Shown one piece after another: positions 35,029-56,353 of a DNA stretch of 64,000 bases. The DNA lies in NCBI RefSeq assembly GCF_002355155.1, contig NZ_AP017369.1:3286001-3350000 (forward strand). The letters are read 5' to 3'. A program made the position numbers and the translations under genes. Under the pieces are notes generated by a model. That model did no database searches and was not told the DNA's origin. It worked only from the letters and a program-made list of their open reading frames with translations. This DNA comes from Corynebacterium suranareeae. GTDB lineage: Bacteria > Actinomycetota > Actinomycetes > Mycobacteriales > Mycobacteriaceae. Position 1 is the first letter of the stretch, and every line of letters starts with the position of its first letter.

Positions 35029-35084
35029 CATCCACTCCCTGATCAGATGCAGTTTCTATAAGTAACAGTGTTTGATCAGCCATC

Positions 35085-35109
35085 GCGCGACTAGATTCCC
35101 TGGTCGCGC
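35085..35109 (+). repeat. Hairpin between backbone pilin and sortase genes
   Basis: Arms GCGCGAC (35085-35091) and GTCGCGC (35103-35109) lie in the 111-base gap. No T-run follows, so it is not a full terminator. It could cut or pause the transcript and keep pilin mRNA more abundant than sortase mRNA. Confidence 0.5.
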
Positions 35110-35139
35110 TTCCGGCTTTAAGTGTTGAGAGATTTTTAA

Positions 35140-36015: not shown

Positions 36016-37190
36016 AACGGGTTTTCCTTCTCTTCCTTGCATTTTTGGTGCTGTTCCCCTCAAATGCGCACGCGCAGAGCCCTCAAACCGGCTCCATCAC
36101 CATCCATAAGGAAGCAAGCAGTTTCGATAGCCCGGGCTTAAGTCTCGCCGGAATCGAATTCCAAATAAACCGCCTCAGCGAGATCGATGTGATGAGCGAA
36201 GCAGGCCGCAAGGCCCTAGAAACGCTCAGCGTTGCTGACGTGCTTAAAGGGCAAACGCTTATCGACGCCCCCCTCTACCAACAAACCACCCTCGAGGGCA
36301 GCATCGGTGTCGCACGATTCACCGACCTCCCCATCGGCGCCTACTTGGTTCAAGAGCTTCCCAGCCGAACTGGCGATGTTTCACGAGCCATCACTTCCCC
36401 ATTTTTTGTGAGCATCCCTTACTTCAGCGTCGACGGCACCTACTACAACGTTGAGGGCAAGCCGAAAATCCAGCCGATCACCCTCACCAAAAGTGCCGAC
36501 GTCAGTTATATAAACGCAGGTGACAAGTTTGATTACACCCTCGATGCCGTCGTCCCGCTTCCCGATACCAACAGCGAGCTCCACCGCTTCGTCATCAAAG
36601 ACACCGTCCCCGACGGACTTGAAGTCAACGATAACCCCCGAGTCACGATGCGCGGCCTTAACTACCAGTCCACACTGCAACAAGGCACTCATTACAGCTT
36701 TACCGTGGACAATAATCGCGACGTCACTTTACGATTCTCCCCCAACGGCCTCACCGAGCTAGCGCGCGCACGCCAACAGCATTTCGATCTCACCGTGCAA
36801 TTCACCTTCGAATCCACCGCCTCCAAAGATCTAGCCGACGGCACCCGCCTCCACAACATCGCCTACTTCTATCCCGACGGCTACCCAGACACCGACGACT
36901 CCCGAAACATCCCCTCCAACGAAGTCATCCTCGCCGTTCGAAAAGACGACAACGGGATCATCGTCCCACCAATCCCGACGGTCCCTACCTTCCCCAGCAC
37001 ACCGGACACCCCTGGCTACGCCCCCGATCCAACAGATCCCACTGGCAGTACCAACGCTGAAAAAGTCCCCGAAAAGCGAAACATCCTGGCCTCCACAGGC
37101 GCGAGCGTTATCGCCATGATCGTCTTCGGCCTAATTCTTGCCACCATCGGTGTCGCACTGATCTGGAAGAGGCAGAGCAATGAACAGTAA
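36012..37190 (+). CDS. Minor pilin (base/accessory subunit, SpaB/SpaE type)
   Basis: 392 residues. A signal peptide (about 1-23, ending Ala-His-Ala-Gln) is followed by SpaA-family domains starting Gly-Ser-Ile-Thr-Ile-His-Lys-Glu. The E-box-like Gly-Ala-Tyr-Leu-Val-Gln-Glu-Leu-Pro appears midway through the N-terminal half. The sorting motif is the non-canonical LASTG (359-363), followed by a membrane helix and Lys-Arg-Gln. Its small size and unusual sorting signal fit a base subunit handed to the cell wall rather than the backbone. It overlaps the sortase gene by four bases. Confidence 0.88.
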   Translation: MKRVFLLFLAFLVLFPSNAHAQSPQTGSITIHKEASSFDSPGLSLAGIEFQINRLSEIDVMSEAGRKALETLSVADVLKGQTLIDAPLYQQTTLEGSIGVARFTDLPIGAYLVQELPSRTGDVSRAITSPFFVSIPYFSVDGTYYNVEGKPKIQPITLTKSADVSYINAGDKFDYTLDAVVPLPDTNSELHRFVIKDTVPDGLEVNDNPRVTMRGLNYQSTLQQGTHYSFTVDNNRDVTLRFSPNGLTELARARQQHFDLTVQFTFESTASKDLADGTRLHNIAYFYPDGYPDTDDSRNIPSNEVILAVRKDDNGIIVPPIPTVPTFPSTPDTPGYAPDPTDPTGSTNAEKVPEKRNILASTGASVIAMIVFGLILATIGVALIWKRQSNEQ

Positions 37191-37221
37191 ACGATTCAAT
37201 TTTCCGTCCAAAGAGGTCAAA

Positions 37222-40017
37222 ATGTTTCGAGCAAAGATCACACGATGTATTGCAACAGTTCTTAGTGTGTTCTTGATTGCTGGTATCGTCACGCCTACAG
37301 TTTCTCAAGCCCAAACTTCTAGCCCGTACGACCCGCTGTCAACTTATCTAGACGATGCTTACTCATATGGCTATGGAGGCCTATTAGATCTTCGATTGTT
37401 AAATCAACATCTACGAATAGGTCCAGATAATCGTGCTCTTACCGTGGCGGAGCTGAATGGCGTAAACCAACTTTGGGAAGCGCTAGAAGATGACACTAAT
37501 AATGAAGAGCCCAACACTTCTTCGATCAATCTTGGACTTTTAGAACTCATTAACGTCAACCTTGGCCAAATATCTCTTCCCCTATTGGGCGATGGAGGAC
37601 TGCTTCAATTCGTCCTAAACGACGCCCAAGTTGGTGTTCTTAGAGAATTCGCTCATGCACCTTCGGTGAATCATGCGATTGGTGCAGTAGGTGTCGTAAG
37701 TGATTCGGGTGGTTTGGAAGTAACACAACCAGGCGAAGGCGCAAATGCAGAAATAAATATCCTGAGCTTGCTCGATCTTCAAAGCACTATTATCGCAGAC
37801 ACAGTTATCGATGAAGCCCACCTTTCACTCGGTGCATTAAGCGCTGGAGCAATTAAGCCTGACCAAAATCTTAATGAACTTCCTGCGCTAAACTGCGCCG
37901 CAAATTACACCGAATTTGATTACAACAAGCTTGACCCAAGCGAGGATCTTTTCGGAACACCGTCCGTACTTGAACAAGAAGATGGCCGAATCTGTAGCTC
38001 TTATCAAATCGCTGATGCTGAGCTAGTCATCAGTGCTCCTCTAGTCGGTGGCCTGGTGACTGAACTGGGAAGCACACTGAGAACACTTTTAGGCGGAGTC
38101 GAAAACACACTCAACTTGCTGCTCGGCTCTGACGGGGTACTAGAGGTCCTGGGTCCAGTTCTGGATCCAATTCTTTCTGTCACCGCTGAAGCTAGTATCG
38201 ATGAAGACACCATTGTTAATTCGCTTCTAATCGATCCCCTGACTTCTTCGGATGAACTGGTAACAATCGATCTCGGCACAGGATTGATAAAAGTAGATCT
38301 TGAAAAACTACATACTGACGGTTTAAGCAATTTAGAGCCCAATACATCACTCTTGACTGCTGCGCAGTTGGCAAAAATCACAGATACTGTGACAAACCTC
38401 TTGACAGCAAGTGCCGTAGAAGAGCCAAACGGTCTCAACGCAAAACTAGATAAAATACTGCGTGGAGAAAATAAGCAGGGTGGTTTATATGCAACGGAAC
38501 TTACCCTCGACGTATGTGTGCTTGGGGTTTTGGTTGACTGCTTGCTAGAAGTTGAGCTAATTGCCACCCTCGGAGGTCTGCTCACTGGAGCTACTGGAAC
38601 CACTGACATAGACGAGTATCGAAATGACCCTTATGGAAAATACTATCGCTCCGGAGCTCTCGGTCTCATCCTCGGACCAGTTGTTGCAACACTTTTGAGC
38701 ACAGTTGGTGGAATCGTTGAAGGCCTTCTCTTCGGAAACGATGACAATCCATCTGGTCTCTTGGGCGGCCTCCTAGGTGATCTCCAAACAGCAGTCATCA
38801 GTCCGTTACTTTCAACGCTGAATCCTGCATTAGTTCTAGTACTAGATCCGATTGCCAATATCATCATTAACCGACAGACTTTAGTAGAAGTTGAGCACGG
38901 CACAGTATTCACCGTCTCTGCGCTTGAAGTTAATATTCTGGATCTAGGAACATCTGCGAGCGATGTAATTCATCTACCATTGGCCACCGCATCTGTCATG
39001 GCACAACATTGGAAGCCATTCGAGATACAGCTAAACGTCGCCAAACAAGGTGATGGTCGTAATTTGCATAGCGGTGGTTTCACTTATGATCTGCAATGTG
39101 TCGATGGAACTACGCCGGTTTTCGAATCTGAACTAGTGGAATACACATCTAACAAAGTCGGAGAAAGATTTGAATATTCATCTGCTCAAAACCAGTTGCA
39201 ATTAGTTGGCGCTACAGGGTTAACAAGCACTGCTCTACTTCCCGCAGGTTCTGAATGCCAATTGATGGCGAATCCTTCGTTGGCAACTGAGAAGTTTTCA
39301 GCTCTTCAACCGACAGGCACAACTCCTACAAGAACTCCATACACTTACTTCCTTGACACTAGCGATCAGGGCCTTCAGGTGTCGGCCGGAGAATCATTGT
39401 GGGAAACGATCACGGATCTAGATAGTCTCAGTTCTTATTCTGTTGAAGATGCGTGGAAGCAGCACTCCATCACTATTACGGTTCCTGAACAAGGGGATAA
39501 AATTCCTTTCAATATTGTTCACTCCTACGACATTGACACTCGAAATATTGAAGTCGTTGCAACGACCGATGGTGTGGCTCCAACTGATCCTTACGTCTTC
39601 GAATACTCGATTGACAGTGGTGCCACTTGGACACCAGTTGTGGATAATCTCATTTCAAATGTCCCGTTCATTGATGGGACTAGTTTGGAACCAATTCAGG
39701 TTCTTGTTCGCGAGCAGCTACCCACACCAGTACCCGATGTCTCTTGGATGATCGCGGATCCAGAAACTCAGTTAGACAGCACAGTAGAAAATGGGTATTC
39801 AACTGCTAAACAATTTGCTGCTGGGTATGGCCTCGATGCAGATTCCTCGACAACTCCGAATCTTCAACTCGTGGCGGCCAACGGAGTTCCCGTCGAGATC
39901 AACTTTGAAGCCATGCTTCCAAAGACCGGTCAGACAACATTGGTGTGGGTCATTGGTTTGGGACTACTCACAGCACTCGGTGCAGTGATCATGTACGTGC
40001 GGAGCAGGAAGCAGTAA
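37222..40017 (+). CDS. Large LPKTG surface protein, candidate pilus tip adhesin (anchor G type)
   Basis: About 931 residues from ATG 37222, which has AAGAGG (37211-37216) in front. An ATG 14 codons upstream overlaps the minor pilin gene and would put polar residues before the signal peptide. After the signal peptide (ending Ser-Gln-Ala-Gln) the first 600 residues are rich in Leu/Gly/Val/Asn with repeated short patterns such as Leu-Leu-Gly-Gly-Leu. They resemble the loosely defined 'choice-of-anchor G' proteins of actinobacteria. The end is LPKTG (about 899-903), a helix and Arg-Ser-Arg-Lys. No von Willebrand A domain is visible, unlike many SpaC tips. By eye the gene is richer in A/T and rare codons than its neighbours. 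Confidence 0.8.
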   Translation: MFRAKITRCIATVLSVFLIAGIVTPTVSQAQTSSPYDPLSTYLDDAYSYGYGGLLDLRLLNQHLRIGPDNRALTVAELNGVNQLWEALEDDTNNEEPNTSSINLGLLELINVNLGQISLPLLGDGGLLQFVLNDAQVGVLREFAHAPSVNHAIGAVGVVSDSGGLEVTQPGEGANAEINILSLLDLQSTIIADTVIDEAHLSLGALSAGAIKPDQNLNELPALNCAANYTEFDYNKLDPSEDLFGTPSVLEQEDGRICSSYQIADAELVISAPLVGGLVTELGSTLRTLLGGVENTLNLLLGSDGVLEVLGPVLDPILSVTAEASIDEDTIVNSLLIDPLTSSDELVTIDLGTGLIKVDLEKLHTDGLSNLEPNTSLLTAAQLAKITDTVTNLLTASAVEEPNGLNAKLDKILRGENKQGGLYATELTLDVCVLGVLVDCLLEVELIATLGGLLTGATGTTDIDEYRNDPYGKYYRSGALGLILGPVVATLLSTVGGIVEGLLFGNDDNPSGLLGGLLGDLQTAVISPLLSTLNPALVLVLDPIANIIINRQTLVEVEHGTVFTVSALEVNILDLGTSASDVIHLPLATASVMAQHWKPFEIQLNVAKQGDGRNLHSGGFTYDLQCVDGTTPVFESELVEYTSNKVGERFEYSSAQNQLQLVGATGLTSTALLPAGSECQLMANPSLATEKFSALQPTGTTPTRTPYTYFLDTSDQGLQVSAGESLWETITDLDSLSSYSVEDAWKQHSITITVPEQGDKIPFNIVHSYDIDTRNIEVVATTDGVAPTDPYVFEYSIDSGATWTPVVDNLISNVPFIDGTSLEPIQVLVREQLPTPVPDVSWMIADPETQLDSTVENGYSTAKQFAAGYGLDADSSTTPNLQLVAANGVPVEINFEAMLPKTGQTTLVWVIGLGLLTALGAVIMYVRSRKQ

Positions 40018-40899
40018 TTGTCTAAACATCAAAAGGTAGCCAAGGCCGGTAGTGCGGGGCGTGGGTCTCGTATTACTTCGTTGGTCTTGCTGATCGTAAG
40101 TTTGGCTCTGCTGTCGTATCCGGTGGTTGCTACAGTGTTGGCGGATTACAACAATAGTGAGAATGCTCGTCGATACGCGGAGGAGATTACGGAGTCCGCG
40201 ACGCCAGAGACGATCCAGCAGCTGCGCAGCAAGGCGGAGGATTACAACGCTGACCTGTGGGCTACTGGGCACCCGGTGCGGCAGGAAAATCCGGAGGATC
40301 CTGCGTACCAGGGTTATAAGGAGCAGTTGCTGACTTCGGATCGCTCAACCACGATGGCTCGCATTCAGATTCCGGATGTGGGTATTGATCTGCCGATTTA
40401 TCACGGTACGACTGATGATGTTTTGTACCGAGGTGCTGGCCATATGTACAATTCTGACCTACCGATTGGTGGAGAGAGCAGTACTTCGGTGATTACTGCG
40501 CATACGGGCATGGTGAATGCGAGTATGTTCGATAACCTGGGAAAACTTAAAGAGGGCGAGCCTGTTTACATTAATGTTCTTGGTGAGACTCTGCGCTATC
40601 GGATGACTGGCTACGAAGTGGTGAAGCCGGAAGATTATGATGCGGTGACGTACGAGGATGGGGTGGATAAGCTCATTCTGATTACCTGTACTCCGTACGG
40701 CATTAACTCGGATAGATTGCTGGTCACTGCCGAGCGAGATCACTCGCCGATTGAAGAAGGTGAAGTTCCTGATGGTTGGCGTTTACAGCTGTCGTGGTGG
40801 ATGAAGCTGGACTTGGCGATTATTGCCACCATTATTGCGATTGCGTTGTGGTCAACAATCCGCCGGAGGAAGAATCTCAAAGTAGAAATTTCAGGATAA
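40018..40899 (+). CDS. Class C sortase 2
   Basis: 293 residues starting at TTG 40018, directly after the previous stop. Membrane helices lie at about 20-42 and 263-283. Catalytic residues are His162 (Thr-Ala-His-Thr-Gly), Cys224 (Leu-Ile-Thr-Cys) and Arg233. The lid region reads Glu-Asp-Pro-Ala rather than Asp-Pro-Trp/Phe, so this enzyme may have a different lid from sortase 1. Two class C sortases in one locus, one per pilin pair, is the SpaD-E-F-like arrangement of C. diphtheriae. No housekeeping class E sortase is in the window. Confidence 0.93.
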   Translation: MSKHQKVAKAGSAGRGSRITSLVLLIVSLALLSYPVVATVLADYNNSENARRYAEEITESATPETIQQLRSKAEDYNADLWATGHPVRQENPEDPAYQGYKEQLLTSDRSTTMARIQIPDVGIDLPIYHGTTDDVLYRGAGHMYNSDLPIGGESSTSVITAHTGMVNASMFDNLGKLKEGEPVYINVLGETLRYRMTGYEVVKPEDYDAVTYEDGVDKLILITCTPYGINSDRLLVTAERDHSPIEEGEVPDGWRLQLSWWMKLDLAIIATIIAIALWSTIRRRKNLKVEISG

Positions 40900-45419: not shown

Positions 45420-46334
45420 TTAGCGGATGGTCACCTGGCGGGACTTGATGTTTTCAAGCTGGCGGCGCTCATCGGCGTTGAGCTGTGCATCGTTGTCTAG
45501 CTCAGCAACGATCTTCTCGTTCAGTGCCACCAACACATCGGCGTAGTCGGTGTGTGAACGCTCAGGATCGAGATCCCACACTGGGACGACGATGCCGTGG
45601 GTGCGGAAAGCGCCAGCAAACTTGGTTTCTTCGCCTAAGTTGAGCTCGCCACGAGCTGCGATGCGTGCCAAAGCGTTGAGCAATGCGGTTTCGTTTTCGG
45701 TGCGTACCCAGCGGATATGCGCCTTGCCACCTGGGTTGACCCACCACACGGCACCTGGAACATCTGCTTCAACTTCGTAGGAAGGCAAGATGGAATCATT
45801 AGCTGCCTGCATGTGCTGTGCAACTTCTGGGGAGAGGTTGTCGTTGTCAGCCAACCACCAGTTGAAGTCTTGGTGGGCGGTGATGTTGAGGAGGGAGGCG
45901 TCGTTAAGCAAGCTCTTTAGCTCTGGCTGCGTGCCATCCGCTGTGGCGGTGGCCAGTGACTCGCCGGGTTTTGCGTTGATGACCCAGTTCAGCGCGAACG
46001 CGAGGTCCTTGCCCGGGTTGTTGGAGCGGATCGCCTGCTGCATTGCAACGAATGCCTCGCCGCCGAATGCTTCCTCGCGCACGAGCGCTGCGGCTGCACC
46101 TGGGAGGACGGTGCACAAGGTGATTTTGCGGTCGGTACCTGCAACGGTGATCGGTGCTGTTGCAGATGGAATGAATTCCTGCAGCGCCACCAGCTGTGGC
46201 TCCATTGCCAAGCCATCAAACGGGCGTGGTTCACGCTCAAGCGCTGCACGTTCAGCCGCGCGGGCTGCAAGTTTTGCCTGACGACGGCTCATGCCCTCCG
46301 GCAGCTGTTCATTCTTCTTATTCTTCTTTGCCAT
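45420..46334 (-). CDS. DUF5926-family cytoplasmic protein
   Basis: About 304 residues from ATG 46334; an upstream start two codons away is possible. A strongly basic N-terminal tail (Met-Ala-Lys-Lys-Asn-Lys-Lys-Asn) and Ser-Arg-Arg-Gln-Ala-Lys-Leu-Ala-Ala-Arg-Ala open the protein, typical of this actinobacterial family. The rest is a globular domain without a recognisable active site. The overlap of 17 bases with the upstream GDPD gene shows one operon. The function is unknown. Confidence 0.85.
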   Translation of the reverse strand: MAKKNKKNEQLPEGMSRRQAKLAARAAERAALEREPRPFDGLAMEPQLVALQEFIPSATAPITVAGTDRKITLCTVLPGAAAALVREEAFGGEAFVAMQQAIRSNNPGKDLAFALNWVINAKPGESLATATADGTQPELKSLLNDASLLNITAHQDFNWWLADNDNLSPEVAQHMQAANDSILPSYEVEADVPGAVWWVNPGGKAHIRWVRTENETALLNALARIAARGELNLGEETKFAGAFRTHGIVVPVWDLDPERSHTDYADVLVALNEKIVAELDNDAQLNADERRQLENIKSRQVTIR

Positions 46335-47079
46335 GCGCATTAGCGTACATGGCAGGCTCCGCGTCTGCGTTCAGAAGCTCCGCTGCACGGTCAGGATAAT
46401 TAGTAGCCAGCATGTCAACGCCCTGGTCGCGCGCCCACAGCATGTCTTTTTGCTTATCGACGGTGAAAAGATAGGTGGGTAACCCCTTGGCCCCAATAAT
46501 CTTCGGCTCCAATTTCGCCCGCTCCAGCGACAACCCCAAACCGGTGGGCACACCGCAGCGCAGATCACGTGGATTACCCCACCGCTCCCACGACCTGCGC
46601 AGATGAATCCGATCAAGGTGTGGGGCAAGGCGAGCCATGCGATACATCGCGGGAAGTGCAAAAGAAATGATGTGGATGCGTGGATCTTCCGTCAGCCCGC
46701 GATATTTTAAAATTTTTGTGATTTCTTCTTCCAGCATGACCGCGTAGCGCATCGGGTGCTTGGATTCTATATAAAGGTGCTTATCTGGATAATCCTCAAG
46801 AATGTCCAACAGATTGTTTAGAGTAAGCACCTTTTCTGGGGCTTCTTTGGTGCCAAAGTTCAAGCTCAGCAAGGATTCCAAATCTAAACGCGACACCCTG
46901 CCACGACCATTGGACACGCGATCCACAATGGGGTCATGGACGTTGACCACTTCGCCGCATTTAGTTAGCCGGACGTCAGTTTCAATTCCATGAATCGGTA
47001 ACTCCAGAGCCGCCCGAAACGCAGACTCTGTTAACTCGGGAAAGCGAGACGATAAACCTCGGTGCGCAATGATCTTCAT
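46318..47079 (-). CDS. glpQ: Glycerophosphoryl diester phosphodiesterase
   Basis: About 253 residues from ATG 47079. GDPD-family catalytic residues are seen in Ile-Ala-His-Arg-Gly near the start, Gly-Ile-Glu-Thr-Asp-Val (metal-binding Glu and Asp) and Val-His-Asp-Pro. It hydrolyses glycerophosphodiesters to glycerol-3-phosphate and an alcohol. No signal peptide, so probably cytoplasmic. A similar gene precedes gntP in C. glutamicum. It is divergent from gntP. Confidence 0.92.
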   Translation of the reverse strand: MKIIAHRGLSSRFPELTESAFRAALELPIHGIETDVRLTKCGEVVNVHDPIVDRVSNGRGRVSRLDLESLLSLNFGTKEAPEKVLTLNNLLDILEDYPDKHLYIESKHPMRYAVMLEEEITKILKYRGLTEDPRIHIISFALPAMYRMARLAPHLDRIHLRRSWERWGNPRDLRCGVPTGLGLSLERAKLEPKIIGAKGLPTYLFTVDKQKDMLWARDQGVDMLATNYPDRAAELLNADAEPAMYANAHGKEE

Positions 47080-47471
47080 GAACACATCTCTCTTGGCTTT
47101 AACTACCTGCTATCGCCTCTAGTATCCCTCCAAACCGCACTCCTTGCAGCGTGAACGGAAATAAGTACACTGAAGCATTTTTGTGACTTGGACTACTTTC
47201 GCTTTTGATGGCTGGGGGCGGGGTAGGTGAGGAAGATTTTCGGACAACCGGATACAATCCCAAGATAGCAATCGATTGCATAGATTCTTGGGAAAGTTTG
47301 GCCGGTAATTTACCTGCCCGATTGGGTGGCAAAAATCCGGTTAGACGCAGCAGCAGGCGTAAATTATTCAGTGACAACCATTGGGTTTTAAAAAAGTTGT
47401 GGCTTAAATCTCAAGTTCTGTGTACTTTGATCATACTTATTCATTCGGATTTCTTACGAAGGATCACCTCC
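47080..47471. promoter_or_regulatory. Regulatory region glpQ / gntP
   Basis: About 390 gene-free bases. A stem-loop with arms TCCCAAGA (47258-47265) and TCTTGGGA (47286-47293) encloses the palindrome CAATCGATTG (47269-47278). TTTGATCATACTTAT (47427-47441) partly resembles the GntR1/GntR2 operator as I remember it (10 of 15 bases). GATCACCTCC just before the ATG contains a weak ribosome-binding site. An in-frame extension of 89 codons to 47205 exists but is A/T-rich and has no start signals. Confidence 0.5.
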
Positions 47472-48863
47472 ATGGACACTTGGGAACAAACACTTGGAGC
47501 AGGGCCACTGCTCGGCATCGCAGCCGGAGCCATTGCCCTCATCTTGGTTCTCGTCATCGTTTTTAAACTGCACGCTTTTCTCACACTGGTACTGGTGTCA
47601 ATCGTCACCGCACTCGTTGCCGGTATTCCTGTCACCGCAGTTGTCGATACTTTGCTCGATGGTTTTGGTGGAACGCTTGCCTCGGTCGCCCTACTGGTGG
47701 GTCTGGGTGCAATGCTTGGTCGATTGGTTGAAACATCAGGTGGCGCAAAATCTCTAGCCGACACCATGGTGCGAATCTTCGGTGAAAAACGAGCACCTTT
47801 CGCACTCGGTGTTGCATCCCTAATTATGGGATTCCCCATCTTCTTCGACGCTGGCCTCGTGGTCATGCTCCCCGTGATCTTCGCAGTTGCTCGCCGACTC
47901 AACGGCTCCGTTCTCACTTTTGGCATCCCTGCAGCTGGCGCATTCTCCGTCATGCACGTGTTCGTCCCACCACACCCAGGACCAATTGCAGCTTCAGAAT
48001 TCTTCGGCGCACAGGTTGGATATGTGCTGATCGCAGGCATCATCGTTGCACTTCCAACCTGGTACTTGACCGGTTACCTGCTGGGTAAGTTCCTTGGCCG
48101 AAAGTTCCCGCTTCCCGTACCTGACCTACTCAGTGGTGGAGCACAAGAAGACGATCAGCCACAAAACCCCGCTAGTGCTGCATCAATTATTGTCATTTTG
48201 CTCATTCCGATGCTGCTCATCTTCGGCAATACCGGAACGTCAATGGCCGTTTCCGCCGGTCTTCTTGACGCAGAATCTGCGGTAGTGAAAATTTTGGGAT
48301 TCCTTGGCGAAACCCCAGTAGCCCTGCTGATCACCGTGATCATCGCGCTGTTCTTCCTAGGCAATCGACGTGGCGTTAATGGTTCCGCACTGGAAAAGAC
48401 CGTCGAAGGTGCCCTCGGACCAATCTGCTCAGTCGTATTGATCACTGGCGCCGGTGGAATGTTCGGTGGAGTGCTGCGCACCTCTGGAATTGGTGGAGCA
48501 CTTGCAGATTCCATGTCCGACCTGGGACTTCCAGTAATTGCAGGATGTTTCATCGTGGCAGCCGTCCTTCGCGTCGCTCAGGGTTCTGCCACCGTTGCAC
48601 TCACCACCGCCGCAGCCCTTATGGCTCCCGCAGTTGCCGCCGCTGATTTCAATGAATTCCAACTAGCAGCAATTGTCATCTCCACCGCTGCAGGATCAGT
48701 CATTGCCAGCCACGTGAACGACTCCGGATTCTGGCTTGTTGGCCGACTCATGAACGCCGATGTCCCCACCACGCTAAAAACCTGGACCGTAAACCAAACC
48801 TGCATTGCGATTGTGGGATTCGTGATGGCCTATGCAATGTTCGGGTTGGCATCGCTTGTATAG
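47472..48863 (+). CDS. gntP: Gluconate permease
   Basis: 463 residues from ATG 47472, the natural start of the membrane domain. It has about 12 to 14 membrane segments of the GntP family. The motifs are Phe-Val-Pro-Pro-His-Pro-Gly-Pro and the C-terminal Ser-His-Val-Asn-Asp-Ser-Gly-Phe-Trp. It is a gluconate:H+ symporter by family and by its C. glutamicum gene position (before pyk2 and ldhA). The first permease in the window (3376-4719) is a distant paralogue with Gln instead of His in the Phe-x-Pro-Pro block. Confidence 0.92.
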   Translation: MDTWEQTLGAGPLLGIAAGAIALILVLVIVFKLHAFLTLVLVSIVTALVAGIPVTAVVDTLLDGFGGTLASVALLVGLGAMLGRLVETSGGAKSLADTMVRIFGEKRAPFALGVASLIMGFPIFFDAGLVVMLPVIFAVARRLNGSVLTFGIPAAGAFSVMHVFVPPHPGPIAASEFFGAQVGYVLIAGIIVALPTWYLTGYLLGKFLGRKFPLPVPDLLSGGAQEDDQPQNPASAASIIVILLIPMLLIFGNTGTSMAVSAGLLDAESAVVKILGFLGETPVALLITVIIALFFLGNRRGVNGSALEKTVEGALGPICSVVLITGAGGMFGGVLRTSGIGGALADSMSDLGLPVIAGCFIVAAVLRVAQGSATVALTTAAALMAPAVAAADFNEFQLAAIVISTAAGSVIASHVNDSGFWLVGRLMNADVPTTLKTWTVNQTCIAIVGFVMAYAMFGLASLV

Positions 48864-48894
48864 TCCGCTGGTTCCGTTGGTTCACAGACTTTAA

Positions 48895-49304
48895 GTTCGA
48901 GACCTTAACTGCGATTTCTTATTACCGATACCAGTCGGTTTTGGTTGGAAATCCGACTGAAATCGGTGTTAAGAAATTGAGCTTGAGGTATCGGAGGTGC
49001 GGTATCGAACTTAAGAAATCGCACTTTAGACCCAACGCACTCAGAGCGCTTTTAAGGCGTCGAAAATCTGTGATGGGCATTGGCATAGGTGGGGCCCTGA
49101 AAAGACCTTAGAAGCGATTCTGGAGCCTTAAGATTTTTGGGATCAGCCACCAAAATTTACGCCACACAGACGGGACCAAACCAGGAGACCCAGAAACCTC
49201 GAAAAGCCAGAATTTGGGCATCTATGTTTGGTATCAAGCGCGATAAACCAAACCAGGAGACCCAGGATCTACGAAAATCAGAATCCTGGGTCTCCTGGTT
49301 TGGT
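48895..49304. repeat. Inverted repeat element, left arm
   Basis: About 410 bases that reappear in inverted orientation at about 54005-54440. Two blocks are identical in both arms: 48946-48985 (40 bases, matching 54324-54363) and 49109-49142 (34 bases, matching 54166-54199). The arm contains a hairpin at 48924-48967 (CAGTCGG/CCGACTG core) and a perfect 22-base hairpin (arms 49247-49268 and 49283-49304). No reading frame of note. Confidence 0.93.
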
Positions 49305-49391
49305 GTGGCGCGTTAAGCGCTTTCCTGCAAGCGGCAAACACTTTTTTATCCGCTTCTACCTGCGTAAAGAGAAGCATCTTACACAAACCCC

Positions 49392-49428
49392 TTGACGTAA
49401 GGTGCATCACACTGCATGATGTTCACCA
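49392..49428 (+). promoter_or_regulatory. Promoter of the asparagine/aspartate operon
   Basis: TTGACG (49392-49397), a 17-base spacer and CATGAT (49415-49420). The ATG at 49428 lies eight bases after the -10 box, which suggests a leaderless transcript. CATCA-N7-TGATG (49405-49421) overlaps the -10 and could be the operator of the encoded regulator. Confidence 0.65.
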
Positions 49429-50132
49429 TGAACCTGTCTGACAGCTGGACACCCCGACAGCCGGTGCTCTCTCGCACCAGTGCTGCGGAGGAAGTCTTCA
49501 ATGCAATTCGTCAAGGAATCGAATCTGGGGAGATCCCACTTGGTTCCAAACTCAGCTCTGAAGCAGCGTTGGCTGCATCGTTTGGGGTGAGTCGCTCGGT
49601 GATTCGGGAAGCGCTTCGATCTTCAGCAACCTTGGGACTAACCAAGACTGAAACGGGTCGTGGAACTTTTGTTATTTCGGCGTCTCCTACCAATGATCTT
49701 GTGTTGGGTAATTTTTCATCCACGGATCTTTATGAGGCCCGCCCTCACATTGAGGTTCCTGCTGCTGGCCTTGCTGCCACCAGGCGGTCGAAGGATGATT
49801 TGCAGCAGCTTTTTAACATCATCGAGCAGATGGAAGCCGAAGATGATCATGTGGCTTGGGTGGAATTAGATACTGAGTTTCATGCAGCTATCGCTAATGC
49901 CAGTGGCAACTCGGTGTTCGCCAAGATTGTCGGCGATATCCGTGAGTCGTTGGCCAGGCAGTCTGAGACCGTGAACGTGGTGTCCGGTCGCAGGGAACCC
50001 TCCAATGAGGAGCACCGCGCGATCGTTGAAGCCATTGCAGCGCAAGATAAACAAGCTGCTGAAACTGCCATGGCATTCCATCTTTCTGCAGTTCAGGTGG
50101 CTGTGGATGACATCGTGAGGAAGCAATCATGA
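49428..50132 (+). CDS. FCD-type GntR regulator of asparagine/aspartate genes
   Basis: About 234 residues from ATG 49428; earlier in-frame ATGs lie in the promoter. The N-terminal winged helix has Leu-Gly-Ser-Lys-Leu-Ser-Ser-Glu-Ala-Ala-Leu and Val-Ser-Arg-Ser-Val-Ile-Arg-Glu-Ala-Leu-Arg. The C-terminal FCD domain has Asp-Thr-Glu-Phe-His-Ala-Ala-Ile and later His residues typical of metal and ligand binding (Glu-Glu-His-Arg-Ala-Ile, Ala-Phe-His-Leu). FCD regulators usually respond to organic or amino acids, and aspartate, asparagine or fumarate is the natural guess here. It overlaps the asparaginase start by four bases. Confidence 0.88.
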   Translation: MNLSDSWTPRQPVLSRTSAAEEVFNAIRQGIESGEIPLGSKLSSEAALAASFGVSRSVIREALRSSATLGLTKTETGRGTFVISASPTNDLVLGNFSSTDLYEARPHIEVPAAGLAATRRSKDDLQQLFNIIEQMEAEDDHVAWVELDTEFHAAIANASGNSVFAKIVGDIRESLARQSETVNVVSGRREPSNEEHRAIVEAIAAQDKQAAETAMAFHLSAVQVAVDDIVRKQS

Positions 50133-51082
50133 TCCCAGCGCACGCCCCACTGGTGGGCCAAAGCCGTGGCGATTACATCGAATCCATTCACTACGGATCA
50201 GCTGTGTTGCTTGATGTGGATGGACATATCGAAACCTCCATCGGTGATACGGAAGCACTATTTTATCCCCGTTCTGCACTCAAACCGTTGTTTGCAGTCG
50301 GCATGGTTCGTGCAGGTCTCAAGCTCAACCAAGCACAGCTGACCTTGGCAAGTGCCAGCCACTCTGGATCCTTGGAACACCAAAAAGTAGTGCTTAGCAC
50401 CTTGCATGATGCAGGGCTTGCGGAATCTGATTTGGGCAACTCTGTTGATCTTCCTTATGGAAAAGCAGAACGCGATGCTCACCTTGCAGCAGGTGGACGC
50501 CCTACCCGGCTGGCCCAAAACTGTTCCGGAAAACATGCAGCACTGTTGGCGCTGTGTGCTCTGAAAGGGTGGGATACCGAAACTTATCTTGATCCTGAGC
50601 ACCCGGTTTCTGCTTTGCTTCGGGAGACTGTTGAGGAGCTGTGTGGAACGAGGGTGGCGTCGATAAGCATCGATGGCTGCGGAACCCCCGTCTATCCCCT
50701 AACGCTTGAAGCTTTGGCCCGGGGCTATGCGCGGCTGGCGAAAGCGCAGCCTGGAAGCGCTGAATACCAGGTCAAGGTGGCAATCATGAATCATCCTGAG
50801 CTGCTCGCCGGCGTTGGCCGCGATGTCAGCGCGCTGATGAGGGCGCTGCCCGGCGCGGTGGCCAAGGACGGATTTGAAGGAATCCAGGCAGTCGCGCTTC
50901 CCGACGGGCGCGCACTCGCCGTGAAAATTTCTGATGGTGGCGACCGCGCCCGCATGCCCATTACCGCAACGCTACTTACCCACGCTTTGGAAGAAGCGCC
51001 GGATGACCTGCGTGCTTTAACCCACCTGAATGTTACAGCGGGACCGGCGGAGGAACTCGTCGGCAAGCTATTTGCTCTTTAA
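50129..51082 (+). CDS. L-asparaginase, Rhizobium AnsA / asparaginase_II family (PF06089)
   Basis: 317 residues, unlike the E. coli-type asparaginases. The Rhizobium-type active site is visible: Ser49-x-x-Lys52 (Pro-Arg-Ser-Ala-Leu-Lys-Pro), the Ser-Ala-Ser-His-Ser-Gly-Ser segment near 75-81, Asn-Cys-Ser-Gly-Lys-His with Cys132 and Lys135, and Cys184 (Asp-Gly-Cys-Gly-Thr-Pro). In the R. etli enzyme equivalent Cys/Lys residues bind zinc and Ser-Lys pairs catalyse. It hydrolyses asparagine to aspartate and ammonia, feeding the aspartase encoded ten bases downstream. Confidence 0.9.
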   Translation: MIPAHAPLVGQSRGDYIESIHYGSAVLLDVDGHIETSIGDTEALFYPRSALKPLFAVGMVRAGLKLNQAQLTLASASHSGSLEHQKVVLSTLHDAGLAESDLGNSVDLPYGKAERDAHLAAGGRPTRLAQNCSGKHAALLALCALKGWDTETYLDPEHPVSALLRETVEELCGTRVASISIDGCGTPVYPLTLEALARGYARLAKAQPGSAEYQVKVAIMNHPELLAGVGRDVSALMRALPGAVAKDGFEGIQAVALPDGRALAVKISDGGDRARMPITATLLTHALEEAPDDLRALTHLNVTAGPAEELVGKLFAL

Positions 51083-51092
51083 GGAAAAACAA

Positions 51093-52502
51093 ATGACCAC
51101 TACTTTTTCAACCACCCGCACCGAACACGACCTGATTGGCGACGCCGAAGTACCAGCTCACGTGTACTGGGGCGTGCATACGATGCGCGCTGCCGAGAAT
51201 TTTCAGATCACCGACCAAAAGCTTGCCGATAATCCTTTCCTCATCGCAGCTCTAGCCCGCGTCAAACAGGCCGCTGCCCGCGCTAACCTGCAACTTGGCC
51301 TGCTTGATCAGACTCGCGCTGAAGCAATTGACCAGGCCTGTGACCGCGTTGCTGCCGGTGAATTCAATGAACAATTCATCCTCGACCCCATTCAGGGCGG
51401 CGCTGGAACAAGCACCAACATGAATGCCAATGAGGTCATTGCCAATGTGGCACTCGAGATCCTTGGGCATGAAAAGGGCGACTACCAGTACCTTCACCCC
51501 AATGATCACGTGAATCTTTCACAATCCACCAACGACGCATACCCCACGGCGGTCAAGATCGCGACCTGTTTTGCCGCCCGCCCGCTGCTCGACGCACTGA
51601 CCGAGCTTGAGCAAGCATGCCGCAGCAAAGCCGTGGAATTTCGGACCGTAGTGAAAATGGGACGCACCCAACTGCAAGACGCCGTGCCAATGACCGTGGG
51701 CCAAGAATTCGGCGGATGGGCTGTCACGCTGCGCGAAGACCACGATCGCCTCGAGGAATCCCTCAAACTCGTCACCGAAATCAACCTCGGCGCAACCGCG
51801 ATCGGCACCGGACTTAACGCGCCAGAAGGATACGCCGAAGCCGCGCGCCGGCACCTGGCAGAACTCACCAACCTGCCACTGACCACCAGCCCGCACCTCG
51901 TGGAAGCAACCAGCGACGTCGGATCCTTCGTTCACCTATCCGGCGTACTCAAGCGCGTGGCCGTGAAACTCTCCAAAATCTGCAGCGACCTGCGCCTACT
52001 TTCCTCCGGGCCACGCGCAGGCCTCAACGACATCCAACTCCCCGCCGTGCAATCCGGATCCTCCATCATGCCGGGCAAAGTCAACCCCGTCATCCCCGAA
52101 GTAGTCAACCAAATCGCCTACCAAGTAGTCGGCTTTGATGCCACCGTCACCATGGCCGCAGAAGGCGGCCAACTCCAACTCAACGCATTCGAGCCCGTCA
52201 TCATGCACTCCATCGGACAGTCCATGAAACACCTGGCCAACGGCTGCACCACGCTAGCCCGCAAGTGCATTGCGGGCATCACGGTCGACGAAGATGCTTT
52301 ACGACGCCAAGTTGAACAATCAATCGGCCTCGTCACCGCCCTCAACCCAGTTCTTGGCTACACCCAATCCACCATGATCGCCATGGAAGCCCTCCACACC
52401 GGACGCGGCGTTGCCGAACTCGTCCTCGAACGCGGTCTCCTTACCAAAGCTGAACTCTCCGAACTTCTCCGCCCCGAACGACTCGCCAACCTCGCCTCCT
52501 AG
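51093..52502 (+). CDS. aspA: Aspartate ammonia-lyase (aspartase)
   Basis: About 469 residues from ATG 51093, with AAGGAAAA (51081-51088) in front. Frames extend upstream into the asparaginase gene but lack a start signal. The fumarase/aspartase superfamily signature [10 protein letters not shown] is present, as are [13 protein letters not shown] and [10 protein letters not shown]. Context (asparaginase, permease) favours aspartase over fumarase. It releases fumarate and ammonia. C. glutamicum is thought to have another aspartase elsewhere, so this may be an additional copy. Confidence 0.9.
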
Positions 52503-52515
52503 AAACGAGAACACC

Positions 52516-53994
52516 ATGTCAACTACTCAAGCACACGGGACTGTGGCTTCTGCTGCTGATTCTGCTTTTGATTCCGCTTTAACCGCAGGTGACAACGACT
52601 ACCACAAGGGACTCAGCACCCGCCAAGTCAACATGATCGCCATCGGTGGCGCCATCGGCACCGGACTGTTCATGGGAGCAGGTGGACGACTCGCCCAAGC
52701 TGGCCCCGGCATTGTCATCAGCTACGCCATCTGTGGAGTCCTCGCATTCCTCATCCTCCGCGCACTCGGCGAACTAGTAATGTATCGCCCCAGCTCAGGA
52801 TCTTTCGTGTCCTATGCTCGTGAGTTCTACGGCGAAAAAGCAGCCTTTGCCACCGGTTGGCTGTACTGGCTGAACTGGTCCATGACAGCAATCGTCGACA
52901 TCACCGCCGCAGCCCTCTACATGAACTTCTTCGGCCGCTACGTTCCATGGATCTCTGCAGTTCCACAATGGGCCTGGGCTTTGGCAGCACTACTGTTGGT
53001 CCTTGGCATGAACCTCATCTCCGTGAAAGTCTTCGGTGAACTAGAGTTCTGGTTCGCACTGATCAAAGTCCTAGCACTCACTGCATTCCTCGTTGTTGGC
53101 TGCTACTTTGTCATCTTCGGAACCCCCATCGAAGGCCATGACACCGGCTGGTCACTTATCAGCAGCAGCGGTGGCATCCTACCGTCTGGAATCCTGCCAG
53201 TATTAGTCCTCATGCAAGGCGTTGTCTTCGCATACGCATCCATCGAACTCCTCGGCACCGCAGCCGGCGAAGTGGAAAACCCCGAAAAGGTCATGCCAAA
53301 GGCAATCAACACAGTGATCTTCCGCATCGCAGTCTTCTACGTCGGATCCCTAGTGCTGCTCTCCATGCTGCTGCCATACACCGCATACAAAGCAGGTGAA
53401 AGCCCCTTCGTGACATTCTTCAGCGCCATCGGAATCCCCGGCATGGACGTAGTCATGAACCTAGTGGTCCTCACCGCCGCGATGTCCTCACTGAATGCCG
53501 GACTCTACTCCACCGGACGAATCCTCCGCTCCATGTCACTAAACGGATCCGCACCCAAATTCGCCGGACGAATCAGCGCCAACGGAGTCCCCTACGGCGG
53601 AATCATCATCACCACCGTCATCGCAGCAGTCGGAGTATTCCTCAACGCACTTGTCCCAGCGCAAGCCTTTGAAATCGTGCTCAACTTCGCAGCAATCGGC
53701 ATCATCGCATCCTGGGGCATGATCATGCTCTGCCACATCGCACTCGTGAAAAAGGCAGAACGCGGCGAACTGAAACGACCAAACTACCGCATGCCCTTTG
53801 CCCCATACTCCAGCTGGATTGTCCTCATCGCGCTCGTTCTCATCGTCGTGCTGATGGCTTTTGATAATCCAGTGGGCACCTGGACAGTCGCCGGACTTCT
53901 TGTCATCATCCCGCTGCTGATTGCCGGTTGGTACGCCTGCCGAGGACGCATCAACGCGATCGCAGCAGAAAGAGCGGCTGCTGTTTCTGAGTAA
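52516..53994 (+). CDS. Amino acid permease (APC family), asparagine/aspartate uptake candidate
   Basis: About 492 residues from ATG 52516, with GAAACGAGAA in front. Twelve hydrophobic segments. The APC family opening [13 protein letters not shown] is clear, and the sequence resembles E. coli AnsP and related amino acid transporters. The first two dozen residues are polar. It is the last gene of the operon and supplies substrate for the asparaginase and aspartase. The exact substrate is inferred. Confidence 0.88.
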
Positions 53995-54004
53995 TTAGCG
54001 CGGT

Positions 54005-54440
54005 GCACCAAACCAGCGGGCCCAGGATTCTGATTTTCGGAATCCTGGGTCTCCTGGGTTTCCTGGTTTGTCCCCACCAAACATACGTGCCAAAGTTTCG
54101 GGTTTTCGAGGATTCTTGTCATGTATGTTTGGTCGGATCTGCGTTGGGAGATTTTTGGAGCCCTATCCCAAAAATCTTAAGGCTCCAGAATCGCTTCTAA
54201 AGGCCTTTAACTGCTCGGTCCATACCAAAGTTCATTGCAGGTTTTCGACGCCTTAGAAGGGCCCTAAATGAGTTGGCCGCTAAAGGGCGATTTCTTAAGT
54301 TCGATACCGCATTACCGATACCGCAAGCTCAATTTCTTAACACCGATTTCAGTCGGATTTCCACCCCAATCCGACTGGTATCGAAGGTGCGAAATTGAGG
54401 ATAAGAAATTGGAAACGCGGAATCGAAAGGGTGAAATCGC
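54005..54440. repeat. Inverted repeat element, right arm
   Basis: The reverse complement of the left arm (48895-49304), diverged but with two long identical blocks (54166-54199 and 54324-54363). Its hairpins are CCCAGGATTC/GAATCCTGGG (54021-54049) and CAGTCGG/CCGACTG (54341-54382). Several stem positions differ from the left arm but remain paired. It fills the gap between the permease and pyk2 stops. Confidence 0.93.
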
Positions 54441-54493
54441 AGGTGAGGTCTCGAAGTTAACGCCGGCAAAGCAGCGCTACCTCAAATCGCGGG

Positions 54494-56353
54494 TTATTCC
54501 TCCCAGCTTTTCACCTTGCGCAGCAGCAGCCTGCTCTTTCGTTGGGATGCACCAAGTTTGCGACTCATCTTGTTGAGAACCTTGATGGCATCGTTGATGT
54601 GTGGGCCCTTGTTGAGCATGACGCATTCAGCACGAAGAGCCATGGCGGCGTCGGTGATTTCTGCGCGGGATGGGAGTCCGTTTTTGGCCATGTTTTCTAG
54701 AACTTGGGTGGCCAGAATGGTGGGGACGTGGGCGGCTTCGGCAAGAGCCATGATCAGTTGGGGGACTTCCGCCATGCGGTCAAAGCCGAGTTCAACGGCG
54801 AGGTCTCCGCGGGCGATCATGATGCCGAAGTTTTCGTGTCGCATGCCGGTGAGCAGGATGTGGGCGAGGCCTTCGTAGCCTGGGATGGTTTCGATTTTCA
54901 GTACGAGACCGAGGCGTTCTACTGCTGCTGGGTCGTCGATGTCTTCAAGTGCTTGGAGGAGGTATTCGACATCTGCGACGTCGCGGATAAAGGAAACCGC
55001 GACGATGTCGGCGTATTTGACCACAAAGCGCAGGTGTTGGAGGTCCTCTCCGGTAAGGCTTGGGAGGGGAAGTTCGGAGTCGGGCAGGTTGATACCTTTG
55101 TAGGCTGCCAGGTTTACGCCTTGTGGCCTAGCGCGTGTGATTTCTAGTTCCACGTCGTTGAAGCCGTCGGGCGTGGAGGCCTTGTCGATGCAGACTGCGG
55201 CGATGGCTCCGTCGTCGAAAAGCACTCTGTGCCCGACCTTAATTGCGCCGACTGCCTGCGGAAGTGTGCAGCTCAGGCGTGGGGTGCGGCCGGATCCGAG
55301 GGAGGGATCGTAGATTTGGTCTTCATCGGTGAGGATGAGGCGGTCGCCGACTTTGAGGTTGATGCGTTGGACTACGGCGGGGATTCCGTAGACGCGGGAG
55401 CGGTCATAATCGTGTTCTAAGAGAGTGCCGTTGGAGACGTAGGCTTTTTGTTGGCCTTCGGCGAGAACTGCGCCGTCGAAAGTTCGGGTGACGGTGAAAG
55501 ACCTGCGGGACCCCCTAGAATCAGGGACGTTGATGACGCTGCCGACGCTTAATTTGCTGAACCATTCTGGGGTTACTTCGATGGGGAGTGCGGGGCGGCC
55601 AGGCAGGTTGGTGGGTACGGGGACGGGATCATAGCCGTGCGGGGTTATCCACAATTTTGCGGGAGTGAGCACTTTGCCGGTTTCGTTGCGGGTGACTCGT
55701 GCACGTCCAACTTCTGGACCGGGAGCTATTTCGCCAGTACGAACCTTCGGGCCAGCAAGGTCCATGCTCACGCGGATTTCGCGGCCGACTTCTTCTGCAA
55801 CCGCGTGGACGTTGTCGATCATCTGCTTCCAGACGGTTTCATCATCATGGGCACAGTTGATGCGGGCGAGATCCATACCGCTTTTGGCGAATCCGCGAAC
55901 CAATTCAATGTCGGTGGCAGCCTCCGTGGGGAGGGTAACCATGATGCACGATGGCGTGTCAGGCAAAGGTTCGCCGAGGAGGATTTCCGCGTGCTCGTCT
56001 AGGATTTCATCGGCATCCTCATAGGCATCAACCACATCAGATGGTGGATAAAGGGGGCCTTCACCAGCGAAAGCTCCAATAACATTGCGGGCAGCTTTCA
56101 GTCGGGCTTGGACGGCAGGTTCCGTGGCGGTTAAGCGGGTAGCGCCTACTGAAGCGAGGCGTTGCTGCAGTCCGCGGAGATCCTTGGTGCGCAGATGGGC
56201 ATAGTGCATGAGGTTGCGGGCGCCCACATAGTGAGTCGGTGCGACTTTCCCGATGGCTTCGCTGTGAGTTTGTGTCACCTCATCAAGTTCTAGGATCAAA
56301 CCATCAAGTTCAGTTTTGATCTCTTGGAGAATGTCCTGGTCAAACTCGTTCAT
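54494..56353 (-). CDS. pyk2: Pyruvate-kinase-like protein (Pyk2)
   Basis: 619 residues, longer than ordinary pyruvate kinase (about 475). An N-terminal helical extension of about 135 residues precedes the barrel. Pyruvate kinase blocks are recognisable: Met-Asp-Leu-Ala-Arg-Ile-Asn-Cys-Ala-His, Met-Asp-Leu-Ala-Gly-Pro-Lys-Val-Arg-Thr, Val-Ser-Phe-Ile-Arg, Ile-Ala-Arg-Gly-Asp-Leu-Ala-Val-Glu and Ala-Thr-Gln-Val-Leu-Glu. The usual C-terminal regulatory domain is largely absent. Where typical enzymes have Ile-Glu-Asn, it reads Ile-Glu-Thr. It catalyses, or derives from an enzyme catalysing, phosphoenolpyruvate plus ADP to pyruvate plus ATP. It lies downstream of ldhA, behind a strong terminator. 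Confidence 0.9.
   Translation of the reverse strand: MNEFDQDILQEIKTELDGLILELDEVTQTHSEAIGKVAPTHYVGARNLMHYAHLRTKDLRGLQQRLASVGATRLTATEPAVQARLKAARNVIGAFAGEGPLYPPSDVVDAYEDADEILDEHAEILLGEPLPDTPSCIMVTLPTEAATDIELVRGFAKSGMDLARINCAHDDETVWKQMIDNVHAVAEEVGREIRVSMDLAGPKVRTGEIAPGPEVGRARVTRNETGKVLTPAKLWITPHGYDPVPVPTNLPGRPALPIEVTPEWFSKLSVGSVINVPDSRGSRRSFTVTRTFDGAVLAEGQQKAYVSNGTLLEHDYDRSRVYGIPAVVQRINLKVGDRLILTDEDQIYDPSLGSGRTPRLSCTLPQAVGAIKVGHRVLFDDGAIAAVCIDKASTPDGFNDVELEITRARPQGVNLAAYKGINLPDSELPLPSLTGEDLQHLRFVVKYADIVAVSFIRDVADVEYLLQALEDIDDPAAVERLGLVLKIETIPGYEGLAHILLTGMRHENFGIMIARGDLAVELGFDRMAEVPQLIMALAEAAHVPTILATQVLENMAKNGLPSRAEITDAAMALRAECVMLNKGPHINDAIKVLNKMSRKLGASQRKSRLLLRKVKSWEE

Follow-up and report, generated by a model that had tools for sequence, protein, structure and literature searches.

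Two members of a dispersed gene-end element family flank an asparagine/aspartate operon between gntP and pyk2 in Corynebacterium suranareeae

The asparagine/aspartate cassette found between gntP and pyk2 in Corynebacterium suranareeae is, judging from sequence comparison, most likely an old resident of that gap and not cargo carried in by the two hairpin-rich arms that flank it. Each arm is a separate member of a family of intergenic mosaic elements that is confined to one clade. Taken as a whole, we consider it likely that the arms are independent, dispersed 3′-end elements resembling the BIMEs of enterobacteria, and that the operon between them is an older resident, lost in two relatives and partly exchanged with a third. 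The analysis centred on a window of 64,000 nucleotides, belonging to genome G000, and on the relatives G116, G205, G212 and G186, of which G212 was taken as C. glutamicum ATCC 13032.

As an earlier note on this DNA had described, four genes lie between gntP and pyk2, and Pfam supports the assignments of gntP, FCD-GntR, Asparaginase_II, aspartase, AA_permease and pyruvate kinase. The order is gntP, left arm, gntR-asparaginase-aspartase-permease, right arm and pyk2, with the following features (positions in the window):

47472..48863, + strand: gntP, GntP-family permease, left neighbour (PF02447, E 3.4e-124)
48890..49033, + strand: left arm module A, inverted YRAKWYC heptamer arrays every 14 bp (DNA fold of 48898-49032, z -6.3)
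49036..49162, + strand: left arm module B, ~125 nt (match to model R1 at G000:C1:3335036-3335162, E 1.1e-20; this copy is one of the 49 sequences from which R1 was built)
49175..49232, + strand: left arm hairpin 1, 58 nt, ACCAAAC...GTTTGGT, weak stem (fold z -0.7)
49247..49304, + strand: left arm hairpin 2, 58 nt, starting 72 nt after hairpin 1 (fold z -10.6)
49419..50132, + strand: FCD-GntR regulator (PF07729, PF00392)
50129..51082, + strand: asparaginase of the PF06089 (Asparaginase_II) family (Pfam; solved relatives 8cly and 7os3)
51093..52502, + strand: aspartate ammonia-lyase (NF008909 above cut-off, TIGR00839 slightly below; Pfam Lyase_1; 1jsw, E 4.9e-159)
52516..53994, + strand: amino-acid permease (PF00324, AA_permease; the closest model, L-asparagine permease PRK15049, gives 622.9 bits, below its cut-off of 773)
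54007..54070, - strand: right arm hairpin 2, split by a short insertion (by eye; fold of 54007-54075, z -4.7)
54076..54133, - strand: right arm hairpin 1, 58 nt (fold z -4.0)
54151..54271, - strand: right arm module B (match to model R1 at G000:C1:3340151-3340271, E 9.9e-16)
54279..54462, - strand: right arm module A, 6 + 6 heptamers with a 14-bp period (outer edge by eye)
54494..56353, - strand: pyk2, right neighbour, encoding pyruvate kinase and transcribed toward the permease gene (NF011314, 835 bits)

The four genes form an operon, presumably controlled by its own GntR regulator, for taking up asparagine, converting it to aspartate and splitting aspartate into fumarate and ammonia. A permease, an asparaginase, an aspartase and a regulator are also what asparagine/aspartate catabolic operons contain; unlike those, the operon described here carries a PF06089-type asparaginase, which was present in 3 of the 242 Corynebacterium genomes searched, every time at the gntP-pyk2 locus.

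The left arm comes after gntP; the right arm, which faces pyk2, comes after the permease gene. That the arms are diverged, inverted copies was borne out by three inverted matches of 74-86%: 49032-49232 with 54076-54276 (201 nt, 74%), 48904-49029 with 54280-54405 (126 nt, 86%) and 49272-49316 with 53995-54039 (45 nt, 84%). The longest identical blocks had been given as 40 and 34 bases; the first was recovered at 40 nt (48946-48985), and the second measured 36 nt (49108-49143). The left half of module A in the left arm is ~42 bp shorter than in other copies. No ORF above about 112 aa was found in the arms, which therefore hold no transposase, as had been noted. Each arm is nearer to copies elsewhere in G000 than to the opposite arm: the left arm is 84.5% identical to the copy at 7616 versus 78.6% to the right arm, and the right arm is 85.6% identical to the copy at 3275914.

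The suspicion that the arms are repeated elements was confirmed by a search of G000 with the left arm, which gave 77 dispersed matching stretches including itself (best other E 4.1e-91), far beyond chance. The elements follow a common plan, in which an optional heptamer palindrome (module A, with heptamers every 14 bp where present) is followed by module B (~125 nt), a 58-nt hairpin, 14 nt, a second 58-nt hairpin and an optional tail. Exact hairpins numbered 123 in G000, 14 in G186, 11 in G212, one in G116 and none in G205, and the reversed pattern gave none in the same five genomes. With 150 candidates scored per genome (150 of 848 in G000), module B reached at least 150 copies in G000, at least 75 in G212 and at least 69 in G186; there were 27 in G116, three in G205 and none in seven other relatives. 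The hairpin is 58 nt long in 117 of 117 cases in G000, 20 of 22 in G212 and 7 of 11 in G186, and 72 is the commonest spacing in all three. The stem words differ among the three species, and length and spacing are common to all. For module B, RNAalifold predicted no pair in alignment A1 (49 sequences); 54 cores aligned at greater length by a script, with different scoring, gave a hairpin around AGAAGCGCTTCT in which each pair is broken in 3 to 25 of the 54 sequences, so that a weak stem may exist there. No known structured RNA accounts for the arms, since Rfam returned no gathering-level match over seven loci (48000-55500 gave four miRNA/sRNA matches far below gathering scores). A plasmid or phage origin was likewise set aside, the arm having no match among 72,556 plasmid and 50,697 phage records, collections that may omit sequences closely related to the window.

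The element clusters sit at gene 3′ ends. In the stretches fetched from G000, 46 of the 79 clusters lie in convergent gaps, 29 in tandem gaps, one in a divergent gap and three inside weak ORFs; among the module B matches listed, the corresponding convergent, tandem and divergent counts are 10, 8 and 0 in G212 (n=18) and 10, 5 and 1 in G186 (n=16). Counts over five homologous 64-71-kb regions served as the control for gap orientation, gaps adjoining a convergent gap being biased as a control because they cannot be convergent themselves. Against this regional control, convergent gaps are favoured over tandem ones, beyond mere avoidance of divergent gaps. The orientation of the 54 paired elements is mixed (15 opposite versus 8 along the genes in tandem gaps; 20 on the minus versus 9 on the plus strand in convergent gaps), which weakens the case for an RNA function on one strand. 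At least three of the twelve element-bearing gaps inspected (325453, 1459490 and 1504875) retain, by eye, an ordinary terminator, and the element is thus dispensable for termination there. Nor do the arms qualify as intrinsic terminators (a GC hairpin followed by a T run): 48700-54700 holds eight terminator-like sites versus 6.1 in shuffles (sd 1.8), no excess. Seventeen orthologous gaps were compared by eye for target duplication (in G212, matches for 16 of the 17 anchors and delimited gaps for 15 of those 16; in G186, matches for all 17 anchors and 13 delimited gaps), with flanks too diverged for the junctions to be placed.

Synteny places the cassette at this locus independently of the arms. 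G116 and G205 carry the four genes in the same order between gntP and pyk2, without arms, and in a tree rooted on outer relatives G205 and then G116 branch outside G000, G212 and G186 (support 100 and 100). G212 and G186 lack the cassette and have gntP close to pyk2, as the earlier note had it for C. glutamicum; no cassette remnant was found in either, a point against the loss of a resident cassette. The proposal that the arms inserted the cassette as a unit, or were inserted with it, is not supported, given the cassette without arms in the earlier-branching G116 and G205 and given that the arms are dispersed genome-wide and are not each other's closest relatives. That the arms are the two ends of a transposon, composite or non-autonomous, which brought in the cassette is highly improbable: they are inverted and free of long ORFs, as such ends might be, but they are unmatched and hold no transposase-sized ORF, the asparaginase gene occurs only once in G000 although the element is dispersed there, and the one transposase family searched, Y1, is absent from all five genomes.

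The cassette would thus be older at the locus than the arms, and would have been lost in C. glutamicum and G186. A three-protein tree pairs G212 with G186 with a support of only 80; a 29-gene tree pairs G000 with G212, which requires two losses. In G212, the left arm aligns with the window in one 3.9-kb stretch that includes gntP (86.5%), indicating the same insertion as in the window. G212 also has a right arm beside pyk2, inverted and degenerate (67% over 169 nt); it is nearest to other G000 copies and not to the right arm of the window (66.5%), so its identity as right arm rests on position only.

The presence of the cassette in the G000 lineage may not be purely vertical, given its low third-position distance to G116: this is 0.29-0.36, below even the G000-G212 median of 0.38, whereas 34 other genes of the window have a median of 0.51 (two of them at or below 0.36). 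Positions 49389-49430, at the start of the regulator gene, are identical to G116, and homology to G116 runs from 49358, 54 bp past the last hairpin of the left arm, to the permease stop codon. These limits and distances, together with the arms left without a cassette in G212, would also suit a version of the unit insertion in which the common ancestor of G000, G212 and G186 lost the cassette and this lineage later re-acquired it from a donor resembling G116, at a site between two elements already there. The cassette-proximal hairpins are moreover alike (19 nt identical, 38 of 45 bases; next best match 35 of 45), but the match is not the best one in both directions, left hairpin 2 being nearer to copy 2407343 (6 edits). 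Since G116 has no arms here, an exchange by homologous recombination within gntP and pyk2 would have deleted them, and the permease gene shows near-ordinary divergence in its later portion (0.38-0.44), as if resident beforehand. We regard re-acquisition as unlikely; the permease divergence speaks for a cassette already in place that was exchanged in part with a G116-like relative.

BIME/REP elements of enterobacteria are high-copy intergenic palindromes arranged in mosaics and inverted pairs, with a preference for 3′ ends and compensating stem changes. The elements described here share the high copy number, the palindromic intergenic units, the inverted pairs, the mosaics, the preference for gene 3′ ends and the subfamilies with compensating stem changes. 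They differ in that their hairpins are 58 nt long with ACCRRAC/GTYYGGT ends, whereas REPs measure 20-40 nt and bear GTAG or CGTC tags; the hairpins also come as twins with a constant 72-nt period and are accompanied by the ~125-nt module. REP elements with GTAG/CGTC repeats are treated in a published survey (PMC3733652). Among the copies viewed, no GTAG or CGTC tag was seen by eye at the hairpin ends, which read ACCAAAC/GTTTGGT with variable flanks. The element is BIME-like in form, but a REP/RAYT system was rejected because no Y1 (IS200/IS605-like) transposase (PF01797) was found in any of the five genomes, the same model having matched in 5 of 14 control genomes. MITEs and Correia-type elements are similarly short, non-coding and dispersed, with a likeness to terminal inverted repeats; the mosaic ends of the present element vary, in contrast, and no parent transposon was identified. 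Integron attC sites (59-base elements) are also imperfect palindromes of ~58 nt with structure better kept than sequence, but the hairpin end motif does not fit the attC core and no gene-cassette array was seen. The integron integrase (TIGR02249) did not exceed the cut-off in any of the five genomes nor in the 14 control genomes, so that this rejection of attC stands without a positive control; the weak matches are presumably XerC/D-like.

The sequences show how the elements are distributed and built, where they sit relative to 3′ ends and, by synteny, the history of the locus; what the elements do and how their copies spread is inferred. The elements probably work as BIMEs do, with fixed-length hairpins that would form in DNA or at transcript 3′ ends from either side and would insulate gene ends or offer docking sites to proteins, or they may simply be tolerated. 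That the repeats are wholly neutral or selfish, and are tolerated at 3′ ends since elsewhere their insertion would disrupt a promoter or a gene, is a plausible reading that falls somewhat short of an even chance. It agrees with the inconsistent orientation, with one lineage being richer in copies than its relatives, and with three loci that bear the element in G000 and whose orthologous gaps in G212 measure 65, 52 and 6 bp; against it stand the preference for convergent over tandem gaps and the shared geometry, which, with stem words differing among three species, suggests a constraint beyond copying. We propose only tentatively, with more doubt than belief, that the elements of the C. glutamicum group form an unnamed structure-constrained class, with twin 58-nt hairpins at a 72-nt period, a ~125-nt module and a location mainly at convergent gene ends, its geometry fixed while the stem words drift. 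If true, such retention of geometry over sequence would point to a dedicated, fast-evolving partner, be it a DNA-binding protein, a nuclease or a copying enzyme.

The locus cautions that an operon lying between inverted repeats need not have moved. The family offers a system for studying hairpins whose geometry outlives their sequence, and, C. glutamicum being a leading industrial organism, an element family with at least 75 module copies in the genome taken as its reference, concentrated at gene ends, would bear on views of 3′ ends and terminators and on genome-reduction designs.

The inverted arms that the earlier note had described are real, and align in blocks of 201 nt (74%), 126 nt (86%) and 45 nt (84%) on either side of four cassette genes (gntR, asparaginase, aspartase and amino-acid permease), all on the single contig of 3,537,507 bases of the source Corynebacterium genome, G000, in which the window is G000:C1:3286001-3350000. 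Its identical blocks are present as stretches of 40 and 36 nt, and its gene assignments for the cassette and the neighbouring gntP and pyk2 were upheld. The cassette asparaginase belongs to Pfam PF06089, which we take to be the family called Rhizobium-type. From the protein families, the operon is predicted to take up asparagine, to hydrolyse it and to convert aspartate into fumarate by deamination, with the GntR protein as its own regulator. A 42-nt stretch that begins before gntR and runs into the gene (window 49389-49430) is identical to that of a relative, G116, which suggests a conserved promoter and operator.

The note had reasoned that the cassette and both arms, if shared at this locus by all close relatives and with arms absent elsewhere, would argue for an ancestral arrangement rather than insertion. 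What was found is the cassette without arms in G116 and G205 (taken as C. callunae DSM 20147) and its absence from G212 (taken as C. glutamicum ATCC 13032) and G186. G116 has the same four genes between gntP and pyk2 and, at the arm positions, hairpins followed by T runs that by eye look like ordinary terminators. In G205 the four genes lie between plaC and pyk2, gntP being absent there, and the asparaginase gene (L052:5171-6124) has one in-frame stop. The cassette asparaginase occurs in 3 of 242 genomes (G000, G116 and G205), always at this locus. The gap in G212 and G186 holds no remnant of the cassette. The left element of G212 and gntP align with the window as a single stretch, and next to pyk2 there is an inverted element that is more degenerate; the G186 gap contains module B, one part of the element, at G186:C1:2887421-2887528, followed by hairpins. 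A three-protein tree rooted on outer relatives gave (G205,(G116,(G000,(G212,G186)))), in which the first two splits have a support of 100 each and the last one of 80, and an unrooted 29-gene tree (30,480 nt) placed G000 with G212. The simplest reading is that the cassette is ancestral at the locus and was lost on the G212 and G186 side, in one loss or two.

Close to the idea of the earlier note, the cassette might have been re-acquired between existing arms, an unlikely course even though the third-position distances between G000 and G116 in its four genes (0.34, 0.30, 0.29 and 0.36) fall below 0.51, the median of 34 further genes in the window, two of which are at or below 0.36. The sliding distance between the two genomes is 0.30-0.40 from gntR through asparaginase into the early part of aspartase, 0.20-0.22 where aspartase ends and the permease gene begins, and 0.38-0.44 in the later part of the permease gene, near that of pyk2 (0.42-0.53). 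Because of this pattern in the sequence, we read the divergence as partial homologous exchange of an already resident cassette with a G116-like lineage. At the neighbouring gene plaC (window 46318-47085; third-position distance to G116 0.13), nucleotide identity is 94% to G116, 92% to G212 and 79% to G186, and recent between-species exchange probably took place there. Elsewhere in the window, the G116 copy of another gene, at 30060-31007, is unusually close (third-position distance 0.22), as are G212 and G186 to each other (0.12), and 33463-40899 holds five genes without a match in the homologous G212 region, with 35-83% protein identity where matched in other relatives.

Searching with the left arm, as the note had proposed, did reveal further copies across its own genome: among the best 40 of 128 candidates, the nine strongest other places, right arm included, match it at 74-84% identity over 233 bases or more. 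When the arms were compared with seven other G000 copies and three from G212, the nearest copies of the left arm were those at 7,616 (84.5%) and 293,117 (84.1%) and that of the right arm the one at 3,275,914 (85.6%), the arms themselves being 78.6% identical. Each arm is thus nearer to copies elsewhere than to the other, so they are not a matched pair made for the cassette. In a tree of the 12 copies, the left arm grouped weakly with the G212 left arm (0.49) and the right arm with the copy at 3,275,914 (0.80). A local duplication is seen at G000:C1:588201-588635 (L139), where the twin-hairpin element occurs twice, near-identical, 304 bp apart and with flanks identical as far as shown.

Of 54 paired copies, the 28 with the least divergence were compared with one another, which defined a common core that starts some 127 nt before the first hairpin and ends with the second. 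From -125 to +125, most of these copies align with over 20 of their 27 partners; 25 nt further out the number drops to 0-15 (left) and 0-20 (right), and the outer modules are therefore common to a subset only. The copies at 1789492 and 2671229 lack the left end. The hairpins end in ACCAAAC/GTTTGGT, 149 of 152 relaxed matches are exactly 58 nt long (two are 57 and one 61), and 53 neighbouring hairpin starts lie 72 nt apart. A scan with looser ends found 58 nt in 117 of 117 hairpins in stretches of G000, 20 of 22 in G212 and 7 of 11 in G186, with 72 the commonest spacing in each (35, 6 and 4 pairs), and no hairpin in 71 kb of G116 or 69 kb of G205. The commonest inner stem words of G000, G212 and G186 differ (GAGACCCA, CGTGACAA and GTGACCAA, respectively). 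At L064 and L187 another repeat type adjoins some elements, its recurring units resembling, by eye, GTCATGACnTTGTGCAC.

Folded as DNA, three of the four window hairpins were far better than shuffles (z -10.6, -4.0 and -4.7); the first hairpin of the left arm was not (z -0.7). The consensus fold of the 54 paired copies drew the hairpin pair as a single long nested hairpin, not two. Stem variation in these copies is compensated, but one word is common to all four half-sites of a copy, and the compensation is in part concerted change. For module B, conserved structure was not found on an alignment of 49 sequences (A1), and the fold of the 54 copies gave weak structure. In the optional module A, 7 of 9 extracted G000 copies repeat the heptamer YRAKWYC at a 14-bp period, with direct repeats in the left half and inverted ones in the right half. 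The seven copies together have 102 spacings of 14 or 28, where 500 single-base shuffles averaged 0.008; as the copies are homologous, they show a single design seven times over and do not count as independent cases. A further array of heptamers, these with the word CGACTTC and by eye an apparently similar spacing, was noticed at L191 (the gap around G000:C1:3426267) and L072.

The exact hairpin pattern matched 18 of 242 genomes, with 123 matches in G000, 14 in G186, 11 in G212, 1 in G116, none in G205 and one each in 14 others. The reversed pattern gave 0 in these five genomes and 0-2 nearly everywhere else (6 in G144, 4 in G156), so single matches mean nothing. A module-B profile of 135 positions, all of whose counts are lower bounds, was built from 49 G000 copies and so matches G000 partly by construction; it found at least 150 copies there (the best 150 of 848 candidates), at least 75 in G212, 69 in G186, 27 in G116 and 3 in G205 (150 candidates scored each), and none in seven further Corynebacterium genomes. 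Among the matches listed, titles and abstract openings of the open-access literature named no repeat family of this kind in C. glutamicum; subscription papers, original genome papers included, lie outside that scope, and we therefore do not claim the family as undescribed. Two stem-loop surveys (PMC2267715, PMC1590033) name C. diphtheriae, the word glutamicum being absent from their main text; the passages found in a C. glutamicum sRNA survey (PMC4046766) do not mention such repeats, and the main text of a REP survey (PMC3733652) lacks the word Corynebacterium.

The placement of the elements was followed in 79 G000 hairpin clusters, drawn from 100 listed of the 123 exact-hairpin places and some left-arm match places, with genes called by a codon-usage script, not annotation. 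Forty-six lie in convergent gaps, 29 in tandem and 1 in divergent ones, and 3 inside weak ORFs. Background gaps of at least 100 bp (n=96) comprise 15 convergent, 25 divergent and 56 tandem; against these shares, p is 7e-19 for convergent (46/76) and 4e-9 for divergent (1/76), values that must be read with the homology, and so the non-independence, of the five 64-71-kb background regions in mind. The module-B matches listed give the same picture in G212 (10 convergent, 8 tandem and 0 divergent, n=18) and G186 (10, 5 and 1, n=16). Relative to tandem genes the direction of the elements is inconsistent (15 opposite, 8 along). A search for the Y1 transposase family, the one family sought, found no member in any of G000, G116, G186, G205 and G212. 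The elements, if active at all, probably act at gene ends. Because of the convergent preference without strand preference and the fixed hairpin geometry, a BIME-like role would fit, in which they may serve in supercoiling or protein docking, or as 3′-end hairpins usable from both sides.
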